A stretch of 38,690 nucleotides of DNA, taken from the NCBI GenBank assembly GCA_949527715.1, contig CATEWF010000003.1, positions 1 through 38,690 on the forward strand, read 5' to 3'. Shown here one piece after another: positions 26,436 to 29,912 of this stretch (the first letter of the stretch is position 1; each line of letters begins with the position of its first letter). Below the pieces are notes generated by a model. The model saw nothing but the letters and a program-made list of their open reading frames with translations. It did no database searches and was not told the origin of the DNA. Origin of the DNA: an uncultured Mycoplasmatota bacterium (GTDB lineage: Bacteria > Bacillota_I > Bacilli_A > Mycoplasmatales > Mycoplasmoidaceae). Both the position numbers and the translations under genes were made by a program.

Positions 26436-27233
26436 ATGAAATTATTTTTTATAGGTGATATTTTTGGTGAAAAAGGAAAAGAAGCTATCCAAAAAGAGTT
26501 GTCAAACATTATTAAAAAAAATAAAATAGATTTAGTTATTGCAAATGCAGAAAATTGCACTAATGGTAGATCTTTATCTATTTCAGATTATGAATTTTTA
26601 TTGAAATGAGGAATTCAATATTTTACTTTTGGTAATCATACATGATATTTAGATGAAATTAAAGAAGTTTTAAAAAATAAGAATACTATTAGACCTGCAA
26701 ATTTAAAACCACTATCAGAAGAATCTAAATATGGAGTTGGTTCATTAGAATTTACTTACAAGAATAAAAAAATAAGAATTACAAATTTGTTAGGAAATAC
26801 TGTTTTTTGTCATGAAATACAAACAAACCCGTTTACAAAACTTGATGAAATATTAAATATTGATAATTCAGACATACATATTGTTGATTTTCATGCAGAA
26901 ACCACAAGCGAAAAGAATGCATTTTTACAATATTTTGCTAGTAAAGTTTCAGCTATTTTAGGAACTCATACGCACATTCAAAGTGCTGATGAAAGAATTT
27001 ATAAGAATACAGCATATATAACAGATGTTGGTATGACTGGACCAAGTGAAGGAGTTATCGGAGCTAATCCTAAAACAATAATTAAAATGTTTAGAGGAGA
27101 AAGTGAAAGATTTAGATTATCTCCTGATATTTCTAATTATCAACTTAATGGTGTAATTATTGAATTTGATGATTTAACAAATAAACCAATAAAAATTAAA
27201 AGAATTTTTATTAGAGAATTAGAAGGGGTTTAG
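26436..27233 (+). CDS. ymdB: YmdB-type metallophosphoesterase (TIGR00282-like)
   Basis: MKLFFIGDIFGEKGKEA, IVDFHAETTSEKNAFLQYFASKVSAILGTHTHIQSADERI, YITDVGMTGPSEGVIG; 266 codons. Confidence 0.9.
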
Positions 27234-27297
27234 TTTAATGGCAAAACTAAGGTCTCCAAAACCTTTGATGTGAGTTCGATTCTTACAACCCCTGCCA
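27224..27297 (+). tRNA. tRNA-Trp (anticodon CCA), CCA end encoded
   Basis: AGGGGTT/AACCCCT acceptor, GTTT/AAAC D-stem with GG in loop, AAGGT-CTCCAAA-ACCTT anticodon arm (CCA at 34-36), GTGAG-TTCGATT-CTTAC T-arm, G73 + CCA. Confidence 0.95.
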
Positions 27298-27307
27298 ATA
27301 AAAATAA

Positions 27308-27335
27308 AAAGATGGAACTAAGCCATCTTTTTTTA
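27308..27335. terminator. Rho-independent-type terminator between tRNA-Trp and dnaN (convergent)
   Basis: AAAGATGG-AACTAAG-CCATCTTT followed by TTTT. Confidence 0.8.
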
Positions 27336-28406
27336 AATATTTTTTCTAGGTACAATTAACGATATGAATTCTTGATCTTTTAAATCTTTTAAAATAATTG
27401 GTGAAGTAGCATTTATAAAATTAAATTCAATTTCGTTAGAATTAATATTTTTAATTAAATCTAATAAATATTTTGCATTTAAATAAAATTTAATTTCTGG
27501 ACCATTATAATTTTTAATTTCTATATCTTCATAACATGAACCTGATTCAATATTTTTAAAAGTTGTAATTATTTTTTCTTTTTCAATATTTAATTGAAGA
27601 ATGGGTTTTTTATCAGAGTTTAATAAAACAATACCACGATTAATTGATTCAAATAATGCTTTTTTATTTAATAAAAAAGAATAATTATATTTTTCATTAA
27701 ATATTTTAGTAATAGAAGGATATTGACCATCAATTACTCTTGATAAAATAGTAATATCTTCTATTTGAAATAATATTTCATTTTTATTTAAATAAGTATT
27801 TATATTATTTTTAGATTCTTGAATAATTAAATTTAAAATCTTAATATCATTTAAAGAAAGAATAAAGGGAGTTTTTTCTCCTTTATAAGGGTGTTTTAAA
27901 TAACTTAAATGGAATGAATCTGTAGAGGTAACTTCAATAAAATTTTCTAATCTTTCACTATTAAAATAAATACCCGTTAAAACATTACTCTGATCAAAAG
28001 ACTGTAATGTTGTAGAAGTTAATTTTGTATAAATTTTATTAATAAATTCTTTTTCTAAAATAAATTCTTTTCAACCAATGTGATTAAATTTAATCATAGG
28101 GTATGTAAAATCTTCTAATAAATTTAAATCAGAAGTAAACTTATCTGTAGAAATTCTAACTATTGAGTTGTCAATTAAATTAAAAGTAATTTTATTTTCT
28201 GATATTTTAGAAATAATATTAAATAATAAACTTCCTTTAATTAATATTTTTCCAGTTGAAAAAATATTTATATTATTATTTATTTCAATTTCTTCTACAA
28301 TTATTAAAATTCCAGATAAAGAAGGAATAGTTGTTAAATCTAAAATTATTTCATTACAAAATTTTAATTTCTTAACTAATAAATTTTTATCAATAGTGAA
28401 TTTCAT
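27333..28406 (-). CDS. dnaN: DNA polymerase III beta sliding clamp
   Basis: MKFTIDKNLLVKKLKFCNEIIL...IPSLSGILI start; C-terminus SPIILKDLKDQEFISLIVPRKNI; 358 codons; adjacent to dnaA. Confidence 0.92.
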
Positions 28407-28448
28407 AATTTGTTTTTTATTTATATTTTATTTATATATTATTATATA

Positions 28449-28530
28449 GAAGTTGGAATGTAGGAAAAATACATTTTCTTTATAATATATTTAATTTTTA
28501 AATATAAATTTCCAACATTTTTCCAACATT
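28449..28530. promoter_or_regulatory. Candidate oriC element: repeated TTCC(A/T)ACAT motifs between dnaA and dnaN
   Basis: Exact tandem TTTCCAACATT at 28509-28519 and 28520-28530; reverse-strand TTTTTCCTACATTCCAAC within 28451-28470. Confidence 0.5.
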
Positions 28531-29912
28531 TAAATCTTTTTATATAAATTAACTATAAACTCTTCTAATTTATTATCTTTTTTAATTTTTTTAGTTATAC
28601 TCTCAATACTTTCTATTACTGTTGAATGATCTCTACCAGAGAAAAAACTCCCTATTTGAGAATAATTCATATTAAATTTTTGTCTTAATACATACATACA
28701 CACTTGTCTTACTAATGAGATTTGTTTCGTTCTATTTTTAGATCTAACCAGATCAGGGTTAATAGAATAAGCTGCACAAATTTGATTAATAACTATTTCA
28801 GGATTAACATCAAATCCATATTTCATTAAATTATCATGATTATCAGTTTCATTAATTTTTTTAATAATATCTAAATTAATAATTGCATTTGGCGGTAAAT
28901 TATTATTAATTACATAAAATAAAATTCGATGTAAAAATCCTTCTAATTCTCTAATATCATTACAATATCTTCTACTAATATAATTAATTACATCACTTGT
29001 TAAAATAAAACTTTCATTACTTTCTTTTAATTTTTCTTCAAGAATTTTTTTAATTGAATTTAAATCTGGTTTAGTAATTTTTATATATAACCCAGAGTGG
29101 AATCTAGATTTCATTCTAGACTCGAGATTTTGTAATAAACTAGGTTCTTTATCTGATGTCATTATAATAATTTTTCCAGTGCTAACATTTTTATTGAAAA
29201 TATTAAAAAATATTTCATTAATTTTTTCTTTTTTTTCTAAAAATTGGATGTCATCCAATAATAAAAGATCATATGATTCATATTTTTCTTTTAATTGTTC
29301 TACAGAGTTACCGCCTACAGAAAAACTGTTATAAACTTCTCGAACAAAGTCATCTGTAGAAATATATTTAACAATTTTATTAGGAAAGTGATTAATATAT
29401 TCATTACCGATTGCATGTAATAGATGTGTTTTTCCTAAACCAACACCACCACTTATAAAAATTGGGTTCCAAAATTTATCTTTAAATATTGTTTGAGCAG
29501 CATTATATGCTAATTTATTAAATTCACTAACAATAAAATTATCAAAACGATAATTACTATTAATTCCGGTAGATTTATTGTTTTGATTAACAATAAAATT
29601 ATTTTCTACTTTTTTAGGATCAGGCAACTGATTGATTATTGTAGATTCACTTTCGGTGATAAATTCTAAAACATAATTACTATTATTAATTTTGTTTAAT
29701 TCTTTTTCTAAATCTAATTTGTAATCTATTTTTAAAGTTTGCTTTGCAAAAATGTTTTTTACTTTTATATAAATTACATTATCTTTTACATTACAAACAG
29801 AAATTGGTTCAATAAATTCATTATAAAAAACTACATTTCCACAACTGTTTTTAATTTTTTCTTTAGCTAATGTTAACAAGTTATTTAAATTTTTTTGTAA
29901 TGTACGTTCCAT
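28530..29912 (-). CDS. dnaA: Chromosomal replication initiator DnaA
   Basis: [45 protein letters not shown]-terminal [22 protein letters not shown]. Confidence 0.97.

Follow-up and report, generated by a model that had tools for sequence, protein, structure and literature searches.

A putative BUS-type chromosomal origin with variant DnaA boxes between dnaA and dnaN in a Mycoplasmataceae genome

The segment at 28437-28528 of the DNA analysed here (a stretch of 38,690 nucleotides, the window) is very probably the chromosomal oriC of a Mycoplasmataceae genome and appears to be of the BUS (Basal Unwinding System) type. The assignment uses sequence, conservation, position, unique occurrence and spacing, and from these we infer DnaA binding, unwinding and looping. 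It is an ordinary type of origin with a new box variant, accompanied by a natural series of initiator and box specificities. The surprise is the family-wide turnover of the box and the recognition helix, not the 11-bp repeat at the centre of a first-pass annotation. That annotation had proposed a cluster of non-canonical DnaA boxes forming an oriC, a reading supported by a conserved array in relatives and by a turn of the GC skew at dnaA in a sister species.

The 1.2-Mb genome is assembled in 153 contigs, one of which is the window. The nearest public relative by DnaA is an uncultured Mycoplasmataceae MAG, 85% identical in that protein. Genetic code 4 (TGA = Trp) is needed for several genes to read through. 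The only Rfam match is a tRNA at 27224-27294. The gene order is rpmH-dnaA-dnaN, as commonly seen at bacterial origins, with a dnaA-dnaN gap of 123 bp. The features of the region are as follows.

27333-28406, - strand: dnaN, DNA polymerase III sliding clamp (code 4; Pfam and PDB comparison)
28407-28450, no strand: presumed unwinding region and dnaN leader, AT-rich (from sequence, by inference)
28437-28445, - strand: three DnaA-trio-like triplets, ATAATAATA (3'-TAT-5' three times on the other strand), kept in nearly all relatives
28451-28459, - strand: second tandem DnaA-box candidate, ATTCCAACT, 8-bp period; TTTCCAACA in the same slot of the sister species
28459-28467, - strand: first tandem DnaA-box candidate, TTTCCTACA; sister species TTTCCCACT
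28468-28508, no strand: AT-rich spacer separating the inverted pair from the tandem pair
28509-28517, + strand: distal inverted DnaA-box candidate, TTTCCAACA, 11 bp from the next; sister species ATTCCCACA
28520-28528, + strand: distal inverted DnaA-box candidate, TTTCCAACA; sister species TTCCCCACA
28530-29912, - strand: dnaA, initiator, with the domain IV recognition motif GRDHSTV and R399 retained (Pfam and PDB comparison)
from 29978, + strand: rpmH

The tandem 11-bp repeat is present as annotated: the two copies of TTTCCAACATT, at 28509-28519 and 28520-28530 on the + strand, abut without a gap, and the final base of the second overlaps the dnaA stop codon (28530-28532). The inverted relative that had been described also exists, as a relative of TTTTTCCTACATTCCAAC at 28452-28469 on the - strand, some 40 bp away. 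The 11-bp period holds for the + strand pair but not for the - strand pair, which reads TTTCCTACATTCCAACT at 28451-28467 with its 9-mers overlapping by 1 bp and has a period of 8 bp. The intervening segment, called AT-only, is so from 28480 to 28508 but contains two C's, at 28472 and 28478. The box register TTTTCCAAC was dropped, because relatives have TTTCCCACA and TTATCCACA at these slots, shifted by one base; the correct register is TTTCCAACA, laid on TTATCCACA. Read in this way, the candidate boxes depart from TTATCCACA at T4>C and C6>A/T, plus a common A3>T, and from the sequences compared the deviation at positions 4 and 6 is common to the lineage.

The - strand tandem pair beside the trio-like ATAATAATA is probably the functional core, with the 11-bp repeat forming the distal inverted pair. 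Domain IV of DnaA would bind the tandem variant boxes TTTCCTACA/ATTCCAACT on the - strand, and from there DnaA-ATP would oligomerise onto ATAATAATA, 5 bp further on. The oligomer would then open the AT-rich DNA ahead of dnaN. The inverted TTTCCAACA pair, about five helical turns upstream, probably binds extra DnaA, which would be brought into the complex by looping.

The repeat is genuine, and chance does not account for it. The 1.2-Mb genome contains just two instances of the pattern TTCCNAC-N0-6-TTCCNAC, both at the array, and none of its reversed control; all three occurrences of TTTCCNACA in the 38.7-kb window lie within 70 bp. A genome-wide count, one of the checks proposed, is informative for this paired arrangement (2 versus 0) but not for the single 11-mer, TTTCCAACATT being unspecific (9 in the genome versus 5 for the reversed control). 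The canonical TTWTNCACA is absent from 14.4 to 37.4 kb of the window, in agreement with the claim that neither the surroundings of the repeat nor the dnaA-rpmH gap holds a canonical box, and it is not enriched genome-wide (139 versus 172 for the reversed control).

The GC skew was taken from the sister species because the genome's own assembly is too fragmented. On a 367-kb contig of that species, which has dnaA at 312.8 kb, the cumulative GC-skew minimum is a 20-kb plateau (288-308 kb), 5-25 kb off dnaA, and the coding strand switches at about 280 kb. Skew and gene-strand switch thus both fall in the dnaA region, the outcome expected of an origin there.

The dnaA-dnaN gaps of about 20 members of the same genus were gathered by DnaA searches. 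These genomes have the same module in the gap or upstream of a relocated dnaN: tandem CCNAC(A) boxes with a period of 8-10 bp, a short spacer (about 6 bp), ATAATAATA or similar triplets, and then dnaN. Many relatives also have one to three inverted boxes just past dnaA, followed by an AT-rich stretch before the tandem pair. The array is conserved in position and architecture. The four sister-species boxes listed above occupy the slots of the four window boxes, where close relatives carry canonical or near-canonical TTATCCACA, TTTCCCACA and TTCCCCACA. The trio core combined with two GTNGG gave a single site in each of 13 genomes and two sites in another, which holds two dnaA loci; every site but one is at dnaA-dnaN, and a reversed control gave 1 match in 36 genomes. 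Some genus members have no recognisable module. In one gap (L044) about 500 bp extra lie between dnaA and the box module, and the module beside dnaN is intact. At six loci (L090, L091, L099, L101, L102 and L106) dnaN is away from dnaA on the contig, and the box and trio motifs are directly upstream of dnaN, not with dnaA.

Other origins of the Mycoplasma/Spiroplasma type (L030-L037, L151-L167) share a box pair and triplet run between dnaA and dnaN, but their boxes are mostly TTATCCACA, TTTTCCACA or TTATCAACA. In family f7 (L135-L139, L157 and L038) dnaA and dnaN are only 9-20 bp apart with no boxes, and DnaA has QAH, QSH or QTH where others have RDH; these genomes must have their origin somewhere else.

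A BUS is defined by DnaA boxes followed within 16 bp by three or more 3'-NAN-5' trios, and the corresponding program asks for a DnaA box with no more than two mismatches to TTATCCACA (PMC8287927). The window has its tandem boxes 5 bp from the trios, provided that the lineage-specific box is accepted, and exactly three trios, ATAATAATA on the box strand. It also has the dnaA-dnaN location and, approximately and by way of the sister species, the turn of GC skew. The window boxes, at about three mismatches each (A3>T, T4>C, C6>A/T), fall outside the limit of the program, whereas those of close relatives fall within it (the genus member L014 has the canonical TTATCCACA). Location, tandem boxes, short spacer and trios are shared with the incC/BUS origin of Bacillus subtilis (PMC6669920, PMC8287927, PMC10721633). 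The window differs from it in having TTTCCAACA/TTTCCTACA in place of TTATCCACA, an 8-bp period, 3'-TAT-5' trios and a total length below 100 bp.

Across loci the boxes and trios are separated by a nearly constant 5-8 bp, and 93% of loci have three or more trios, versus 49% of shuffled sequences. The commonest trio is 3'-GAT-5'; those of the window are 3'-TAT-5', which counts against the assignment, as do the box mismatches, the offset plateau of the sister-species skew and the genus members that lack the module. The trio-like run at 28437-28445 overlaps a TATAAT -10-like hexamer at 28441-28446, and the sites could be only a promoter and operator of dnaN, with TTTCCA as a -35-like box and DnaA or another repressor as the regulator, the origin being elsewhere. 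We consider this very unlikely. In most loci TATAAT does stand 4-7 bp past the tandem boxes. It lies some 16 bp from the first box and roughly 40 bp ahead of dnaN, as a promoter might. However, five loci (L026, L027, L028, L046 and L047) retain CTAATAATA-like triplets with no TATAAT, and in other mycoplasma families this slot holds longer runs of trios. Retention of the triplet core in such relatives, together with the 93% versus 49%, speaks for trios rather than just a -10 element. An origin also accounts better for the inverted, phased distal pair and for the turn of skew at dnaA. A promoter-only explanation is thus disfavoured; dual use is possible, and the trio and -10 roles may both be served at one site.

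The distal boxes of B. subtilis show helical phasing and work in either orientation (PMC6669920). The distance from the inner distal inverted box to the tandem pair is 30, 40-41 or 49-52 bp across loci, and in the window the distance from the first tandem box to the start of the inner inverted box is 50 bp. A simulation of spacing in helical-turn steps, from which L016 (48 bp) and L027 (53 bp) were left out for want of a clear tandem pair, gave p = 0.0006 for 11 loci and 0.11 for the six distinct values. Phasing of the distal boxes shared with the relatives, at 30, 40 and 50 bp, is suggestive only.

The proposed origin would be served by a single intact DnaA of normal family. It matches PF00308 and PF08299 well above the curated cut-offs and aligns over its length with the B. 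subtilis DnaA of the BUS structure 8btg. R399 and the base-contacting residues of GRDHST are present, and the position of P423 is S; the standard recognition motif ascribed to it is indeed there, as GRDHSTV in domain IV. Residue 433 (E. coli numbering) varies among D, H, N and S within the genus, and it takes 10 steps on a domain-III tree of a wider set. This residue is reported to be highly conserved among bacterial classes, and D433 has been assigned to box base 7, not 6 (PMC8235120). In domain IV of L010-L050 and L115-L121 the variation at 433 is often accompanied by a changed residue 431 and a one-residue deletion before it.

Base 7 adjoins the base that covaries with residue 433. Across the family, position 6 is C or A with D/H433, mostly A with N433 and A, G or T with S433, with exceptions that include the window. 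C6 boxes are found in 15 of 16 D/H433 family genomes versus 1 of 15 with N/S433 (p ~1e-6 ignoring relatedness), and G6 or T6 boxes in 6 of 7 S433 genomes versus 1 of 24 others (relatedness again ignored); the boxes in these counts were partly hand-curated. These figures are what would be seen if the oriC boxes had co-evolved with the recognition helix and residue 433 set the base at position 6. We give this extension of the origin reading nearly an even chance. An independent fit comes from Thermotoga maritima, aligned as RSH, whose box ACCTACCAC has a CCTAC core like several S433 relatives (PMC10316083).

Several points stand against co-evolution. The window has D433 and only A6/T6 boxes, other mycoplasma families have TTATCAACA with D433, and the published assignment of D433 is to base 7. 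L121, from the same-family genus g13, has N433 with the C6 boxes TTTTCCACA and TTCCCACA, and its two nearest N433 relatives have CCAAC boxes. The tree yields only two supported independent pairs (five in all), too few for any test to reach significance. L121 (N433 with C6) and the window (D433 without C6) led us to reject a strict one-to-one code linking residue 433 to position 6. The co-variation is a lead, not a result.

The same origin could instead have boxes that loosened neutrally in an AT-rich reduced genome, DnaA reading mainly CNAC and the link to residue 433 reflecting shared ancestry. We give this reading somewhat less than an even chance. A6 boxes accompany D433 in other families, the window boxes changed relative to the sister species with no change at residue 433, and most background YCNAC sites on the sister contig have A6. 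Yet S433 genomes have T6 or G6 and not the A6 that the background favours, and C6 is absent from all N/S433 genomes of the genus.

Lineage-specific boxes are known elsewhere. The T. maritima oriC shares the non-canonical ACCTACCAC and its CCTAC core with one window box and several S433 relatives, and its altered helix, RSH, resembles the S433 members, whereas the window DnaA itself keeps GRDH (PMC10316083). That origin has five boxes and is not related by descent at such a level. Epsilonproteobacterial origins (H. pylori box TCATTCACN) likewise combine a lineage-specific consensus with recognition-helix differences, but their mark is T at position 5, not 6, and two box clusters flank dnaA (PMC5043019).

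Tentatively, and at somewhat under an even chance, the initiator-origin code may have been rewritten repeatedly within one family, residue 433 passing among D, H, N and S and position 6 following (C/A, C, A and A/G/T, respectively). The window would then be transitional, its boxes having moved off C6 while D433 stays. Origin-finding programs keyed to TTATCCACA would miss such boxes. The DnaA proteins of the family and their matching origins form a natural series for testing a joint change of specificity in an essential initiator and its several sites; these natural origins are only about 60-130 bp long.
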